Assembly: GCA_012517255.1 (NCBI GenBank)
Contig: JAAYVH010000007.1
Location: forward strand, 1-38,258
DNA: 38,258 nt
Direction: 5' to 3'
Source: Chthonomonadales bacterium
GTDB lineage: Bacteria; Armatimonadota; Chthonomonadetes; Chthonomonadales; CAJBBX01
Position 1 is the stretch's first letter. The number at the start of each line of letters is the position of its first letter. Shown piece after piece: positions 17,209 to 24,564 of the stretch. The translations under genes and the position numbers were made by a program. The notes beneath the pieces were generated by a model. It was given only the letters and a program-made list of their open reading frames with translations, was not told the DNA's origin and did no database searches.

Positions 17209-18432
17209 ATGATCACCCGCTGGAAGCAGACCCACGACGCAGGCATCACCTACCCCGAAGGCTTCGTTGCATCGGGGGTGCGCTGCGGCCTCAAGACCGA
17301 GGGACCGGACCTCGCGCTCATCGTAGCGGATGGCCCGGCAAGCGTCGCCGGCGTCTTCACGACCAACGTGGTGCAGGCAGCCTGCGTGCGCTATTCGAAG
17401 CATGTGGTGGAGCGTGGCGTCGCACGGGCCATTCTGTGCAATGCCGGCAATGCCAACGCGTGCAACGGCGACCGCGGAGATCGGGACACCATCAGCATGG
17501 CCGAGATGACGGCGCGAGCGCTGGGGGTAGAGCCGACCACCGTGCTGATCGCGTCCACCGGCGTCATCGGCCATCCCATGCCGATGGAGAAGCTGGAGCG
17601 AGGCATTCCGCTCGCGGCCGATGCGCTCGACCGCGAAGGCGACACCGACATGCGCGTGGCGCGGGCGATCATGACCACCGACCTGCGCCCCAAGGTGATC
17701 GGCGTCCGGTGCGCGTCCGACGAGTGGGACGGCGAGATCGTCTTTGGCGGCGTCTGCAAGGGTTCGGGGATGATCGCGCCCAACATGGCCACCATGCTCT
17801 GCTTCCTTACTGCCGACGTCAGAGCCCCCCACCCATTGCTGCAGGACGCGTTGCGCGAGGCCGTACGGTGCAGCTTCAACCGGATCACGGTGGACGGCGA
17901 CACGAGCACCAACGATATGGCGCTGTTGATGGCCAACGGCGCCGGCCCCTGCAGCATCGCTCAGCCGGGGCCAGCGATGGATGACTTCGTTGAGGCGCTG
18001 TCGAGGGTCTGCCTCTATCTGGCCCGCGAAGTGGCCCGCGACGGCGAGGGCGCGACCAAACTGGTGGAGGTTCGCGTAACCGGAGCGCCCAACGAAGGCG
18101 ATGCCGAGCTCGTGGCGCGCACCATCGCGGAGTCGCCGCTCGTCAAGACGGCGCTCTTCGGTTGCGACCCGAACTGGGGCCGCATACTGGCAGCGGCGGG
18201 CCGATCCGGCATCGTGTTCGACCCGCGAAGCGCCACCGTGCTCATCGGCGATCAGGTCGTCTACGAGACTGGATCCTCAGCCCCCTTCGACCGCGATGCC
18301 GCCCATGACTATCTGACCGAGCCCGAGGTCATTCTCACCCTCGACCTTGCCTCGGGCCCGGCGTCCGCCTCCGTCTGGACCTGCGACTTCAGCTACGACT
18401 ACGTCAAGATCAACGCGGAGTATCACACGTAG
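17209..18432 (+). CDS. argJ: Bifunctional ornithine acetyltransferase / N-acetylglutamate synthase
   Basis: The protein has 407 residues, full length for ArgJ. It transfers acetyl from N-acetylornithine to glutamate, recycling the acetyl group in the cyclic arginine pathway; some members also use acetyl-CoA. The self-cleavage site is seen in KGSGMIAPNMATML, between Ala194 and Thr195, Thr195 becoming the nucleophile of the beta chain. The oxyanion-hole STGVIG (116-121) and C-terminal DPNWGRI are present. It follows argC with a 10-base gap; argB and argD are not in the window. Its last 10 bases overlap, tail to tail, the end of the M41 peptidase gene on the other strand. Confidence 0.98.
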   Translation: MITRWKQTHDAGITYPEGFVASGVRCGLKTEGPDLALIVADGPASVAGVFTTNVVQAACVRYSKHVVERGVARAILCNAGNANACNGDRGDRDTISMAEMTARALGVEPTTVLIASTGVIGHPMPMEKLERGIPLAADALDREGDTDMRVARAIMTTDLRPKVIGVRCASDEWDGEIVFGGVCKGSGMIAPNMATMLCFLTADVRAPHPLLQDALREAVRCSFNRITVDGDTSTNDMALLMANGAGPCSIAQPGPAMDDFVEALSRVCLYLAREVARDGEGATKLVEVRVTGAPNEGDAELVARTIAESPLVKTALFGCDPNWGRILAAAGRSGIVFDPRSATVLIGDQVVYETGSSAPFDRDAAHDYLTEPEVILTLDLASGPASASVWTCDFSYDYVKINAEYHT

Positions 18433-19409
18433 GCAGTCTTAGCGGCCCCCGTATCCGGCGTGTCGGGCGTGGGTCGCAGCCAGTCCGGCCCGAGAATGCC
18501 CACGAGGTCGGCACGATACAGGAGCGAGCGCTTCAACAGAGCCTCCGTGATGCGGTCGAGCGTGTCCCTGTGGGTCGTGATGATGCGTGTGGCTTCCTTT
18601 TGCGCCCAATCCACCCAGGCCTGAACACGGTCCCGTTTCCGACGCCGGCGAGGGCCGTTGAGGTCTGACATGTCGTCGGCGGGCGGATCGACGTTCCAGA
18701 CCGTAACAATCAAGCGCCCGACACGGCGCGCCATTGTCACATCCGCCTCGCACCCTGTGGTGAACTCGCCAAGCACCACAAGCTCGGCAGCCCTCCCTGC
18801 CATGCACTCACACGCCATCTGACGTGCGCGCTTGAGCGACACGAACTTCAGGTCGGGGTCTTTGGTGGCGATGGTTGCGTTGGCCAGCAACGAAGGACTG
18901 GCCCCTATTCGGACCTCTGAAGGCATCGCGCCCCCATACGCCATCACTAATGTGTGTCCGGCCTCATGAACGGCGGCGTTGTGCATCGCCGGATCGGGAC
19001 GCATCCAGGCTTCGATCTGCTCTCCGACCCGCCGGGCCGCAGCCGAGTAGTCGGTGGAGATCCCATCCGTCGTCTCCTCCTCCGCTATCTGGAGAGCCGC
19101 GTAGGCGATATGGCCCGGCAACACATCGGAACAGGCCAATGCGGACGCGGACAGGTCACGGGCTCGTTCGCGCACTTTGCGAACAATCTCGGACTCGGCC
19201 ATCGGAATGGCGCGACACCACGGGCGCGGCAGGGAGCTCGAGCCGGAGTAGAGCCTTTCATACCAACCCGCCTCGATAACGATGTCCAAGGCAATGGGAT
19301 GATGGAGGATGGCGGCCAACAGGTGCCTGAGCTCGATCTTGTCGGCCCCATCGGCGAAGGCAAAGTCCTCCGCCATACGCATGAGGCGGTCGGTATCGGT
19401 AGCTTTCAT
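18423..19409 (-). CDS. Stand-alone M41 (FtsH-type) zinc peptidase with Clp-N-like N-terminal domain
   Basis: The protein has 328 residues from the ATG at 19409, with AAAGGA upstream. Residues about 1-115 look like two Clp-N-type repeats (LMRMAEDFAFADGADKIELRHLLAAILHHP; later ARDLSASALACSDVLPGHIAYAALQ). Residues 140-235 are an M41 peptidase core: zinc motif HEAGH at 148-152, then CECMAGRAAELVVLGEFTTGCEADVTMA, whose Asp223 matches the third zinc ligand of FtsH. The basic segment RRRRKRDR and a helical tail follow. FtsH proteins normally carry membrane helices and an AAA+ domain before M41; both are absent, so substrate delivery must come from elsewhere. The start overlaps the stop of the previous gene in ATGA. 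The N-domain call is by eye. Confidence 0.85.
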   Translation of the reverse strand: MKATDTDRLMRMAEDFAFADGADKIELRHLLAAILHHPIALDIVIEAGWYERLYSGSSSLPRPWCRAIPMAESEIVRKVRERARDLSASALACSDVLPGHIAYAALQIAEEETTDGISTDYSAAARRVGEQIEAWMRPDPAMHNAAVHEAGHTLVMAYGGAMPSEVRIGASPSLLANATIATKDPDLKFVSLKRARQMACECMAGRAAELVVLGEFTTGCEADVTMARRVGRLIVTVWNVDPPADDMSDLNGPRRRRKRDRVQAWVDWAQKEATRIITTHRDTLDRITEALLKRSLLYRADLVGILGPDWLRPTPDTPDTGAAKTAYV

Positions 19410-19771
19410 CGATCGGGTCCTTTCTGTGTGATCAGTGCCTTGACGCATCGGGCAACACAGTGCCAGGTCTCCACGATCCTGGGACGCGTGCGCTGAGCGG
19501 TGTGCGGAGATCGGCCGCTGATTCCCGCCAAGGCCGTTGCCTGCAACACCCGAACCATCGCACGGCGACGCCGCGCGGCGTGCATCAGGATGCAGTCCCA
19601 CACGCGTAGTGAATCTTGTGGATCCAGCCGGTGGTAGCCGATCCGCTCAAGCAACCGGCAAGCGCGACCGGACCCGGCGCATCTAAGCTCGACACGCCCA
19701 TCCGGGTATCTGGAAATGCGCTGCCCCAATCGCTTCGGCGCTCCAGCAAGTCCCTGGCACGGTCTCCCCAA
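19406..19771 (-). CDS. Small basic protein of unknown function, TTG start
   Basis: The protein has 121 residues. The TTG at 19771 is chosen because GGAGGG (19777-19782) sits 5 bases upstream, directly after the stop of the VirD4-like gene, and because the gene ends with a 4-base ATGA overlap with the M41 peptidase start. It is basic and Cys-containing, with a plausible helical core (RACRLLERIGYHRLDPQDSLRVWDCILMHAARRRRAMVRVLQATALAG). No family is recognised. Its tight fit between two genes of the operon argues that it is real. It could be an adaptor or DNA-binding subunit, which is speculation. Confidence 0.6.
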   Translation of the reverse strand: MGRPCQGLAGAPKRLGQRISRYPDGRVELRCAGSGRACRLLERIGYHRLDPQDSLRVWDCILMHAARRRRAMVRVLQATALAGISGRSPHTAQRTRPRIVETWHCVARCVKALITQKGPDR

Positions 19772-19786
19772 AAACGCCCTCCGTTT

Positions 19787-21283
19787 CTATGGGTCCGGTT
19801 CGTCGACGGTCCCGTCGCCATAGATCGCACGCATGAACTCCTTCCATTCGGGCCAAAGATACAGGGGCTTCAAGTACGCATAGAACGGTGGCGTGCCGGG
19901 CGTGAACCACACTGTGGGCTGCCCGCGTTCCGGGTGGGTCGGTGCCGTCATCAGGTCCCCCGGCGACAGCAGAGGCCGCTCTTCCTCTCGGATGATGCGC
20001 TCACCACCCATCTGACTGGCTGTTACCTGCACCATGAGCCCGGATTCACGCGACAGAATCTCCGCGTCGTCGATGGTCAGTGGTGGGACAGCAATGCGAG
20101 TGCCGAAGCCGGCGAGCAAGGTGTGATGCATGCCGCGGTAGCGCTCTACGATCTGCCCAATGGTTTGCACGGCTGCAACGACGCGAATGTTGCGCGACCG
20201 CAGCGTGTTGATCCGAGACGCAAGGTCCAGACGTCCGAGAGCGCTGGCAAACTCATCCAGCACCAACGTACACTCAACGGGAAGTCGGCCAGATGGGGAT
20301 GAGCTGGCCTTGCGATAGAGCGAGTTGATCAGCGACGCTATAAGGATGGTAGTGAACGGCATGAGCCGTTCCGACTCGTGTTCAGGGATGTGCACGAGGA
20401 GCACTGCCGGCGAGTCTCCCAGCTCACTCAGCCGGATGTCTGCTGCCGAAACGCATCTCCGGACGTCTTTCGCCGCAAAACCGCGGGTGTAGCCGAGCAT
20501 AGTCGACAGTGTCGTTCGGTGGTTGGAGCTGCCCGCAGCAGCCGAGGCGAACTCCAAGACGTCGTTAAGGGAGAGGTCTTTAGCTAGCTTCTGCAGCTCC
20601 AACGCGGTGCGGCAGCCGTCGGAGATCTCGCCGAGGCCACATCGGCTCGGACCCCTACGACACGCGTTGATGATCGGCGTCAGCAGGGCGATGGCTTCAG
20701 CCCTGAAATACTCGGTCTCGTTCTCTCCTTGCCGAACCACGTCAGCGAGCATCGTGGCAAGCGCCTCAGCGTCGCCAGCGTCGCGGAGTTCAGCGATCGG
20801 GTTCCACTTTAGCGTGACATCAGGCTCGGTCGGTGAGATATAGAAAAGCTTCGCTCCGGCGCGCCGACACGCCTCGCGAACAGGACGGGTCAGGTCGCCC
20901 TTCGCGGACAAACACACGATGAGGCCATCGTTACGTTTGATGCTCTGGACCAGCCACGGCAGGATCAAACTGGTGGTCTTGCCCGAGCCGGACTTGCCCA
21001 TGATGATCACGTGGCGCGCGCGCAGATGCTCCGGAAGAGTGAGGTCCGCGACAGTGTGAGTGAGGTCGGTGGGAAGCTGCGCGCCCGTTGCTTTGGTTCC
21101 GCGCTCGACAAGCACCCAAGCGTTGGGCAGCGCGATACTCTCACTCGAATGGTCCGCTCCCCGATTGACCAGCATTCCGTAACGTTCGAGATCGTGTCTG
21201 TGCGCCAGCCGGCCAGCCACGCCGTTGCTGTCGTTGCTACGCCGGGCGGGCCGCTCCGGCACCGGGATGGCATTGATCTTCAT
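19787..21283 (-). CDS. Soluble VirD4/TraG-like coupling ATPase
   Basis: The protein has 498 residues, with AGGAAGAAGG before the ATG. Motifs: Walker A GKSGSGKTT (96-104) in HVIIMGKSGSGKTTSLILPWL; the family-typical LIVCLSAKGDLTRPVREACRRAGAKLFYISPTEPDVTLKWNPIA (about 121-164); Walker B TLVLDEFASALG (339-350); sensor-like RVVAAVQTIGQI; and the C-terminal ERPLLSPGDLM seen in TraG/TraD proteins. VirD4 proteins normally have N-terminal membrane helices. Here residues 1-90 are hydrophilic, so it is cytosolic or recruited by a partner. In conjugation such hexamers pump relaxase-DNA; no relaxase or secretion channel gene is visible nearby. It starts 10 bases after the ClpX-like gene ends. Confidence 0.88.
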   Translation of the reverse strand: MKINAIPVPERPARRSNDSNGVAGRLAHRHDLERYGMLVNRGADHSSESIALPNAWVLVERGTKATGAQLPTDLTHTVADLTLPEHLRARHVIIMGKSGSGKTTSLILPWLVQSIKRNDGLIVCLSAKGDLTRPVREACRRAGAKLFYISPTEPDVTLKWNPIAELRDAGDAEALATMLADVVRQGENETEYFRAEAIALLTPIINACRRGPSRCGLGEISDGCRTALELQKLAKDLSLNDVLEFASAAAGSSNHRTTLSTMLGYTRGFAAKDVRRCVSAADIRLSELGDSPAVLLVHIPEHESERLMPFTTILIASLINSLYRKASSSPSGRLPVECTLVLDEFASALGRLDLASRINTLRSRNIRVVAAVQTIGQIVERYRGMHHTLLAGFGTRIAVPPLTIDDAEILSRESGLMVQVTASQMGGERIIREEERPLLSPGDLMTAPTHPERGQPTVWFTPGTPPFYAYLKPLYLWPEWKEFMRAIYGDGTVDEPDP

Positions 21284-21293
21284 AGCCTTCTTC

Positions 21294-22082
21294 CTATCTT
21301 CGGCGCTGGAGAACGTCTGTCAGGAGCTCATCCGGTACTGCAGGCATCAGCCCAACGAGGGCCTCATCGCTCTCCAGTGCGAGACGAAGCTCGTCCGTTG
21401 GCACGCGTGGGATCGGGAGGATTGCCGTCCAGACGCCAGCGTCATGGAGCGTGCCGAACCACGGGTGGAGAGCTGCGAACCGATAGCCCTCGGCCGGATG
21501 ATATGGGAGGTGCCCGACAGTCGCAATCACCATGGTCCATCCGCGGGTCTGGAGGTCGAACGGCCGGCGCAGGCTATCGGCAAGTTCAAGCACCGACCTG
21601 CACGTCAGAAATGCAGCCACCTGCCCGACCACCGATCCGCCTCGGGAGTCGCCGCGCTGAGCGGCGAGCAGCCCGTCGACCCCCTCAACCACAACCACGG
21701 CTTTAGTGAGGCTCTCGCGAGCTTCGCGAGACGCGGCCGTCTCCACACACGCTGCGCCGACTAACTGGTTGCAGGAGCGGCCCTGCGTGATCGCCGCGGT
21801 CACATCCACGCGAATCATCGGCAGCCGGCGGCTTTGTGCCGCCAGCCGGACCGCGAGAATGTTTGTTGCGCGCTCGGCACCGAGAAGCAGAATGTTGCGC
21901 GGAGCCACGGACTCCCAAAGCATTGAGGCAGTATGTTGGCCGAGGCGCCCGACAACATCGGCAAGCTTAAGCTCATGATCAAGAATGCGCTGCGCCAGCG
22001 TCCATGTGCCCCGATGTGCTTGGCGTCTAGCTGTTGAGTTGGTCTGTTTGGTGGACACGTGGTCGAGTAGGTTGGTCGCCAT
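21294..22082 (-). CDS. ClpX-like AAA+ protein with degenerate nucleotide-binding motifs
   Basis: The protein has 262 residues from the ATG at 22082, 10 bases after GGAGG; an upstream reading to 22136 is less likely. The order of elements follows ClpX: DVVGRLGQ (42-49) like the VGQ box; NILLLGAERATNIL (63-76) in the P-loop position, lacking the GxxxxGK[ST] lysine; VTAAITQG...LVGAACVETA like the TxLTEAGYVGEDVE region; AVVVVEGVDGL (128-138) in the Walker B place, with EG instead of DE; VVGQVAAFLTC like GVQQALLKIL; and WFGTLHDAGVWTAILPIPRVPTDELRLAL like the PEFIGRLP segment. It is probably a pseudo-ATPase scaffold or a heteromer partner. The assignment rests on motif alignment by eye. It heads the operon. 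Confidence 0.65.
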   Translation of the reverse strand: MATNLLDHVSTKQTNSTARRQAHRGTWTLAQRILDHELKLADVVGRLGQHTASMLWESVAPRNILLLGAERATNILAVRLAAQSRRLPMIRVDVTAAITQGRSCNQLVGAACVETAASREARESLTKAVVVVEGVDGLLAAQRGDSRGGSVVGQVAAFLTCRSVLELADSLRRPFDLQTRGWTMVIATVGHLPYHPAEGYRFAALHPWFGTLHDAGVWTAILPIPRVPTDELRLALESDEALVGLMPAVPDELLTDVLQRRR

Positions 22083-22168
22083 GGCATTGGTTCCTCCGCA
22101 GGCCACAAAGTGACAGGTGAGAGTCTGCGACGACACCGCGCACTAAGTCCACGAATCGCCAAATCGGC

Positions 22169-23059
22169 ATGAATCTTTGGGAGGATTTGCGCGACCGGCA
22201 GGCGAACTTGGACGCCATAGTTGTCAACGACGGACACAAGGACCTGGCGATGCCGGACGTGAAGCCAACGATTCGCCCAGCGACGCTGGCAGACGTGATG
22301 TTGCCAGCATTGATCTCTCCTCAGACGGGCCTCTTCTGGAACGCTCAGCCTGAGACGTTGGATCGCGTCGTGAGCAAGTCCTGGGTCCTGCACGTCCTAC
22401 CCTCAGCGCTTCTGTTCTCTCAGGGGCAGAGCACCGATAGCCTGCCGCTCTTTGTGGTCCTCACGGGCGCGTTTGAGGTGAGGCACCGCCTGGATTCCGG
22501 AACCCTCATAGTCGCCAGGGACGGCCCAGGCGTGGTCATCGGTGAGGTCGAGATGTTCGTTCGCGACATCGGACCCGATATCACGGCGCGCGGCGATATG
22601 AACACCGCCATGGCAGACATAGTCGCCGTTGAGGCAAGCGACGTGCTGGCGATCAACCCGCCATCCACGATTTTCGAAACACGCGACTTTCAGGTGGCAC
22701 TGAACATGTCGAAGCTGCTCTCGATCAAGCTGCTGCGCCGAAACGCGTGGCTCGACACGTCGCTGGTGCGCAAGCCGATCATTGAGATCTATCGCTACCT
22801 GCGAGAACTTGCATCAAGAACCAACGGCGTTCGGCCGCTGGGGAGAGACCACGTTGAACTCGTCGCAAGTCAGACGCAGTCGCAAGTGGCCAACCGCCTC
22901 AACATCAAGCGCCAGACCCTCAACTCGGCTGTCAGGCACAAGATGGCTGCTCAGGGCCTAACATGGGAATCAGGCAATATCAAGATGACCAGGCGGTTCT
23001 ACGAGAGGCTTCTCGAGGACCCTGTTAGTCTCGCCCGCGAAGGCCGGATCACGCGCTAG
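22169..23059 (+). CDS. CRP/FNR-like transcription regulator
   Basis: The protein has up to 296 residues. The ATG at 22169 has no clear ribosome site and the ATG at 22250 (MPDVKPT) is an alternative. Residues about 72-165 show a cyclic-nucleotide-binding fold (VLPSALLFSQGQSTDSLPLFVVLTGAFEVRH, GPGVVIGEVEMF, ADIVAVEASDVLAI). A connecting helix follows, then a DNA-binding domain with an HTH at about 231-262 (ELVASQTQSQVANRLNIKRQTLNSAVRHKM). The usual RxS cAMP-binding signature is not evident, so the ligand is unknown. It is divergent from the AAA/VirD4/M41 operon across about 86 bases, the standard place for that operon's regulator. Confidence 0.8.
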   Translation: MNLWEDLRDRQANLDAIVVNDGHKDLAMPDVKPTIRPATLADVMLPALISPQTGLFWNAQPETLDRVVSKSWVLHVLPSALLFSQGQSTDSLPLFVVLTGAFEVRHRLDSGTLIVARDGPGVVIGEVEMFVRDIGPDITARGDMNTAMADIVAVEASDVLAINPPSTIFETRDFQVALNMSKLLSIKLLRRNAWLDTSLVRKPIIEIYRYLRELASRTNGVRPLGRDHVELVASQTQSQVANRLNIKRQTLNSAVRHKMAAQGLTWESGNIKMTRRFYERLLEDPVSLAREGRITR

Positions 23060-23068
23060 AATCCGGCC
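23042..23068. terminator. Terminator-like hairpin between convergent genes
   Basis: GGCCGGAT (23042-23049) pairs perfectly with ATCCGGCC (23061-23068) across an 11-base loop that contains the stop codon of the CRP-like gene. Downstream is pyrimidine-rich but has no true T-run. The convergent peroxidase gene ends at 23089, so a bidirectional transcription end is plausible. Confidence 0.45.
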
Positions 23069-23088
23069 CCGCTTCTCGTATCACATTT

Positions 23089-23673
23089 CTACCGCGTCTT
23101 CAGCGCGCGTTCGATGGCCTCGATGACCGATGGGTCGGTGGGCTGAGTTTTGGCAGAGAAGCGTCCGATGGGCCTGCCGTCGCGCCCAATGAGGAACTTG
23201 GCGAAGTTCCACTCGATATCGCCGCCAAATGACGGGTTCGTGTCTTTCGAGGTGAGATAGCGGTATAGAGGCGCCTGACCGTCGCCCTTGACCACAATCT
23301 TGGAAAACATGGGGAAGGTGACCTTGTAGTTAGCCGTGCAGAACTGCTTGATCTCAGCCTCGGTGCCCGGTTCCTGCGCCCCGAAGTCGTTGGCGGGGAA
23401 GCCGAGGACCACCAGTCCCTGCTTGCCGTACTTCTCGTAGAGGCCTTGCAGGCCCGCATACTGGGGGGTGTTGCCGCAGCGGGAGGCGACGTTGACGATC
23501 AGCAATACCTTACCCTTGTAGCGGTTTAGCTTGACCGAGCGTCCGTCAATGTCTTTGACGGTGAAGTCGTGGACGGTCTGAGGCGCCTTTGCTTTCGACT
23601 GGGACAGAACTCCTGCGGGCATCATGCCAAGAACGGCCGCGCCGGCCACGGCTATGACATATCGCGTTTTCAT
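23089..23673 (-). CDS. Exported glutathione-peroxidase family protein
   Basis: The protein has 194 residues from the ATG at 23673, with AGGAG upstream. It reduces peroxides using thiols; bacterial non-seleno members often use thioredoxin. The catalytic tetrad is complete: Cys66 in [12 protein letters not shown] (Cys, not selenocysteine), Gln100 in [13 protein letters not shown], and Trp155 and Asn156 in [11 protein letters not shown]. Residues 1-25 form a signal peptide ([24 protein letters not shown]), unusual since most bacterial members are cytoplasmic, so this one likely protects the envelope. It is divergent from the prepilin gene. Confidence 0.95.
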
Positions 23674-23727
23674 GATGGTTCTCCTGGGAATGCTGGGACA
23701 CACGCGAGAGTCTACGCGTTCAAGGAC

Positions 23728-23756
23728 TTGCAGTTCCCGCCGCGGACTGGTACAAT
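23728..23756 (+). promoter_or_regulatory. Sigma70-type promoter of the prepilin gene
   Basis: TTGCAG (23728-23733), a 17-base spacer and TACAAT (23751-23756) lie in the divergent gap between the peroxidase and prepilin genes. Transcription would start near 23763 and give a leader of about 76 bases before the ATG at 23839. Confidence 0.6.
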
Positions 23757-23760
23757 GTCG

Positions 23761-23785
23761 TCATACGAATACGCGAATCGTATGA
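23761..23785. promoter_or_regulatory. Dyad operator overlapping the prepilin transcription start
   Basis: TCATACGA (23761-23768) and TCGTATGA (23778-23785) are perfect inverted 8-mers around a 9-base centre. The dyad begins 4 bases after the -10 element, so a dimer bound here would block open-complex formation or clearance. Centre-to-centre spacing of the half-sites is 17 bases. Confidence 0.6.
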
Positions 23786-23838
23786 ACCATCAGCGGCGCA
23801 GTCCGGATCTAGCGGACCGCGTCAGGGGAGGATCCTGC

Positions 23839-24564
23839 ATGAAGCGGCAAGGGCCCGGACAGCGGACCGGCTTCACTCTCATCGAACTGCTCGTCGTGAT
23901 CGCGATCATCGCGATACTGGCGGCGATTCTGTTCCCGGTGTTTGCTCAGGCGCGCGAAGCTGCGCGCAAGACGCAGTGCATTTCCAACATGCGTCAGATG
24001 GGCCTTGGGATCATGATGTACACGCAGGACTACGACGAGTTCTATCCCATCGTCAAGGCCATTCCGCTCGACCCCGATGGCAGCGATCTGACCCCGGTCA
24101 TTGTGACGGGATCGCCCGCGGGCTCATGGCCTGAGCGGCTTGTCAGCCTGACCACGGTGACCATGCCATATATCAAGAACGGCGGCATCTTCATCTGCCC
24201 GTCGGCCGTGGCGGGGTGCCCCGGACGCACGCTGACCGTGCCGACGCAGCCCGGCAGCAGAGCTACCTGGAAGCTGACCTACTGGTGCTTCGGGTACAAC
24301 TTCCCGGGCAATACGCCGTTCAGTTTCCCGCCCGGATCGGCGGGCTATCGGAACAACTGCATCCTCGACGGACGGAGCATCGGCTCGCTGGGAGAGCCCG
24401 GAGGAGCAGCATTCCCGCCTGCTGAGCAGCCGATCATCATTGACCAGCGGATCGAGCTGTCGTCGTCGCCAGAGCGGGCGCGGTTCGCCCATCGCGGCGG
24501 CGCCGCGCACGTGTTTGCGGACGGCCACGTTAAGTGGAGGAAGCGCGCCGAAGCCGACGAATAG
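23839..24564 (+). CDS. Type IV prepilin-like protein, DUF1559-like / H-x-DG type
   Basis: The protein has 241 residues. The ATG at 23839 follows GGGGAGG; the reading from 23569 is an artefact crossing the promoter. A class III signal is cut between Gly11 and Phe12 in [27 protein letters not shown], with the conserved Glu at +5. The lineage-typical [36 protein letters not shown] follows, and the C-terminus has [11 protein letters not shown]. The globular domain carries several Cys residues ([12 protein letters not shown]). Such proteins are numerous in Armatimonadota and Planctomycetes; they are pseudopilin-like, and most have no known function. Confidence 0.95.

Follow-up and report, generated by a model that had tools for sequence, protein, structure and literature searches.

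What does a peptidase do when it carries the head of one ATP-driven machine and the catalytic domain of another, with no motor of its own? Clp-N heads and M41 peptidases are each normally part of an ATP-driven machine. P0001, encoded at positions 18423..19409 (minus strand) of the 38,258-nucleotide stretch of Chthonomonadales DNA analysed here (the window), is a 328-aa protein that unites a Clp_N-like region with an M41 metallopeptidase domain, the AAA+ domain being absent.

The P0001 frame starts at an ATG at 19409 and stops at 18423. An RBS-like AAAGGA, read directly at 19418..19423 on the minus strand, lies 8 nt upstream of the ATG, and the codon-position G+C counted from this start (0.64/0.50/0.76) is gene-like. 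Extending the frame further upstream, as far as a GTG at 19601, adds sequence whose codon positions are not gene-like. A 121-aa ORF at 19406-19771 was rejected, as it shows neither a codon-position signal nor a Pfam match. A Pfam scan of P0001 returned Peptidase_M41 (PF01434) over residues 144-302 with 51.3 bits (E 1.7e-13; gathering cut-off 29.9 bits), a single sub-threshold chance match, and no match to an AAA+ domain. No membrane helix was found, the best 19-residue Kyte-Doolittle mean being only 1.5. An ordinary FtsH is encoded separately in the same genome (656-aa frame). P0001 has no match in PADLOC.

The M41 domain spans residues 142-307 (18489..18986, minus strand). Its HEAGH zinc-binding motif (residues 148-152, with H148, E149, and H152) is located at 18954..18968, and the predicted third zinc ligand, Asp223, at 18741..18743 (both minus strand). 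The latter lies within TTGCEAD, which aligns with the TTGAxxD motif of FtsH. In an alignment of 34 sequences, both HEAGH and Asp223 coincide with the FtsH metal ligands, so their retention, asserted in the preliminary description, is borne out. About two dozen residues of FtsH, the segment PFLGRDxxEDRxYSEE, are missing after residue 257, and the oligomerization and activity of P0001 may therefore differ.

The structure model of P0001 was built from an input alignment that covers the M41 part only. This part is modelled confidently, with pLDDT mostly 85-97; in Foldseek it matches FtsH structures (best E 1.4e-7), the isolated protease domain 2di4 giving a target-normalized TM of 0.71-0.73. The TIGR01241 (FtsH) score of the whole protein is 47.2 bits vs a cut-off of 600. 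The original observation on this ORF is confirmed: P0001 is a predicted FtsH-type peptidase with neither an AAA+ module of its own nor membrane helices. In the M41 tree, which has long branches, P0001 clusters with P0009, a large protein of the same phylum, and with soluble AAA-M41 proteins (82/91), apart from the home-genome FtsH. Of the M41 sequences found, the nearest belongs to a soluble AAA-M41 protein of a Rhodobacter plasmid (L041; 33.5%, two-sequence search E 2e-12); that of the viral contig L158, also a soluble AAA-M41 protein, stands at 29%.

The N-terminal helical region comprises residues 1-137 (18999..19409, minus strand) and aligns collinearly with the P0009 double Clp-N. The preliminary description had read residues 1-115 as two Clp-N repeats. 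The first (residues 1-60; 19230..19409, minus strand) stands. With a Clp_N model built in this analysis from Clp proteins of related genomes, the score of residues 1-66 was reached by 0 of 5000 shuffles, and P0001 was the top non-Clp frame against a background of ~2,700 scored frames. The repeat scores 16-20 bits once the P0009 domain serves as, or is included in, the Clp_N model, and it matches the P0009 Clp-N with a BLASTP E of 1e-5. Homology of the first repeat to Clp-N is supported by these comparisons. The second repeat (about residues 70-137) is not established: it is collinear with P0009, with 55 of 2000 shuffles scoring as high, and residues 65-146 alone give no score with the built model. 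Pfam Clp_N (PF02861) does not match P0001 at E up to 1 for the whole protein or up to 10 for N-terminal pieces. This profile may be insensitive here; P0010, a protein with Clp-N repeats encoded beside P0009, also scores under its cut-off.

Structure prediction of the N-terminus, proposed earlier as a comparison with Clp-N, yielded six helices at low confidence (3-20, 24-36, 38-54, 74-91, 98-114, and 121-136; pLDDT about 33-60 across residues 1-100), the Clp-N fold having eight. No Clp-N is present among the 50 listed Foldseek matches of the model, whose N-terminal part is of low confidence. A single-sequence AlphaFold model was discarded (mean pLDDT 41, Foldseek matches meaningless).

The pairing of the two domains recurs in P0009. 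When residues 1-136 of P0001 were searched against 291 genomes of the phylum, the best outside match was a 1445-aa open frame containing the 1437-aa P0009 (E 7e-4 per genome, with about 0.2 such matches expected over 291 genomes). The same frame had already been flagged by the M41 search. P0009 consists of a double Clp_N (12-150; 26.4 bits with the model built here), a Clp-type AAA_2 (206-341), two FtsH-type AAA+ domains, and M41 (1249-1427). Residues 5-135 of P0001 are collinear with it at a score above all 3000 shuffles, mainly owing to the first repeat, and the alignment ends at a shared IEAW/LEAW boundary; the M41 parts match with a BLASTP E of 2e-7. Because the comparison matches in both domains, the occurrence of Clp-N and M41 in one chain is accepted as a real pairing, although the exact extent of the head is not settled. 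As judged by sequence, P0001 is the motor-less version of the pairing seen in P0009. The Clp_N-M41 architecture that was to be sought elsewhere is thus found, there with AAA+ modules. The P0009 locus (L191:6897-15009, G254:C108) also encodes P0010 (406 aa) and a gene resembling a Ser/Thr kinase by eye, and P0009 itself has a receiver-like stretch by eye.

The N-terminus can also be read as one Clp-N-like repeat followed by a residual lid and linker from the AAA+ domain of FtsH (~100-145), which would make P0001 a degraded soluble FtsH and not a protein with a two-repeat head. The FtsH model aligns from residue 103 into HEAGH with few gaps, 498 of 500 shuffled versions of residues 101-144 score lower with it, and tblastn matches to FtsH often begin near residues 99-104. 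This reading is nevertheless doubtful: a lid-only model gives 0.4 bits for P0001, and collinearity with P0009 extends to residue 135, up to the same IEAW/LEAW boundary. The whole of residues 60-146 was also tried as an FtsH lid and rejected (0.4-0.5 bits).

Neither the 291 genomes nor the other collections searched yielded an orthologue of P0001, and viral and genome contigs gave no relatives. Conservation evidence for its architecture is therefore absent. One seemingly AAA-less frame, L004, proved to be an FtsH cut at the contig start. Among the plasmid matches from tblastn, those with annotation (two from Streptomyces and one from Rhodobacter) bear the names FtsH or AAA family ATPase; four matched records are unannotated (Nocardia farcinica, phage MT836215.1, and Listeria phages LM 4-14-1 and LM 4-11-1). 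The viral M41 matches that were checked are long frames of 597-699 aa, together with one contig-edge frame of 427 aa that has AAA+. Small AAA-less M41 proteins occur in the same phylum (L072:2322-3008, L074:6813-7316, and L075:2554-3072), one of them adjoining a recombinase-like gene, and an M41 copy with in-frame stops lies near 4549-5160 of L073. Also encoded in the home genome is a 156-aa protein that consists of a double Clp_N alone (L079:3360-3830, G000:C307).

P0001 belongs to an island of ~4.7 kb (18433..23170) that lacks any DNA match in G001, a genome of the same genus to which both flanks match at 69-77%. The G+C of the island is 0.622 vs 0.659 for the remainder of the window. Only imperfect 16-22 nt repeat pairs flank it, and no tRNA was found within the window. 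Outside the island, a pilin-like N-terminal motif is encoded at 23569-24564 (plus strand), and its DNA matches ~35 further places in G001.

Three further genes occupy the island. P0005 (19787..21283, minus strand; 498 aa) is a soluble VirD4/TraG-like ATPase (Pfam T4SS-DNA_transf, E 8.9e-29) with an intact Walker A (GKSGSGKTT) and no membrane helix. Upstream of it, P0004 (21294..22136, minus strand; 280 aa, with a later ATG at 22082) is probably a degenerate Clp/HslU-type AAA+ that lost its Walker A, the motif being replaced by GAERATN. It has no Pfam match. Its similarity to the AAA+ protein P0002 is weak (BLASTP E 0.05; 3 of 2000 shuffles), and like P0002 it is placed beside a VirD4-like gene. 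A relationship of P0004 to P0009 was rejected, as there is no similarity. A CRP-like gene (22169..23059, plus strand; Pfam cNMP_binding E 1.1e-5, just below the cut-off) diverges from the minus-strand genes.

A conjugative role is unlikely, since the home genome yielded neither a VirB4 above cut-off nor a member of PF03432, the relaxase family searched; P0005, for its part, does not have the membrane helix of the anchored coupling protein found in a conjugative T4SS. VirD4-like relatives on plasmids lie mostly on records typed conjugative; P0002 has no plasmid match. The closest VirD4-like relative, a soluble ATPase, is from a distant genome of the phylum (30% over 453 aa). In its cluster (L102:7080-17501, G175:C1), the gene overlaps an AAA+ gene, accompanied by a ThiF-like (E1) gene, a STAND/beta-propeller giant, and a metallophosphatase-like gene; genes resembling integrase and resolvase by eye are found nearby. 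A second VirD4-like protein of the home genome (L103:1409-4415, G000:C83) is encoded near a PP2C phosphatase-like gene, identified by eye.

We infer the activity, recruitment role, partner, and purpose of P0001 from its domains, motifs, relative, and gene context. With a probability slightly above one half (about 0.55), P0001 would be a cytosolic, ATP-independent or trans-fed M41 zinc peptidase whose Clp-type head selects the substrate or docks it to a partner. It may have lost its own unfoldase or never had one. The head would most likely recognize a substrate or adaptor, or tether the peptidase to a partner; cleavage of accessible, unfolded, or presented segments would fall to the M41 domain. 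By itself, P0001 would be capable of limited ATP-independent cleavage, and processive degradation would presumably need an ATPase in trans. Candidates are the island VirD4-like P0005 or the host Clp or FtsH. A specific form of this arrangement, in which P0001, P0005, and P0004 would act together as a single split protease within a conflict-type island, the VirD4/FtsK-type motor standing in for an AAA+ unfoldase while the Clp-N head couples motor to peptidase, is improbable.

Proteins consisting of Clp-N only are exemplified by mycobacterial ClpC2 and plant ClpT. P0001 could, in their manner, be a pseudo-peptidase or decoy, its head binding Clp-type targets and its M41 domain being structural. 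The shortness of its M41 relative to that of FtsH, the 156-aa Clp-N-only protein of the home genome, and the Clp-N-bearing P0010 beside P0009 are consistent with this role; it is unlikely, as P0001, unlike typical pseudo-proteases, keeps HEAGH and Asp223. That P0001 is an inert mobile-element leftover heading for loss is very unlikely, for although it is a singleton, P0004 looks degenerate, and the genome lacks both a PF03432 relaxase and a VirB4 above cut-off, its frame is intact (328 codons) with gene-like codon positions, an RBS-like sequence, and intact catalytic residues.

As a motor-less peptidase with a Clp-type head, P0001 resembles several known systems in part. It shares with FtsH, the M41 AAA+ protease of TIGR01241, the M41 domain, HEXXH with an Asp third ligand, and the predicted fold. 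In contrast to FtsH, it has no membrane helices, no AAA+, and no segment after residue 257. The soluble AAA-M41 proteins L041 and L158 provide the nearest M41 sequences found, yet they have AAA+, and Clp_N was not detected in them with the model built here. The small M41 proteins of L072, L074, and L075 have no AAA+, as is the case for P0001, but are 167-228 aa long and have no Clp-N head. P0009 has both a Clp-N head and M41 in a single chain, with detectable similarity in both; it differs in keeping three AAA+ domains and in adjoining another Clp_N-bearing protein. Together, the motor-less P0001 and its motor-bearing relative form a test pair for whether the head selects substrates, docks a partner, or frees the peptidase from ATP control.

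The island is also alike in theme to the FtsH ternary conflict systems, whose components include an FtsH-type AAA+ (first domain inactive), Ubl-conjugation genes, and, occasionally, ClpN repeats (Kaur et al. 2020, PMC7159879). The same paper links CRP-like genes to some standalone systems that are related. MoxR AAA+ and vWA genes accompany the ternary systems, but no MoxR or vWA was found by Pfam among the island genes scanned. P0001 also suggests that mobile or conflict-type gene clusters make renewed use of M41 modules. In the ternary systems, ClpN is fused to vWA and not to M41, whereas P0001 joins Clp-N to M41.
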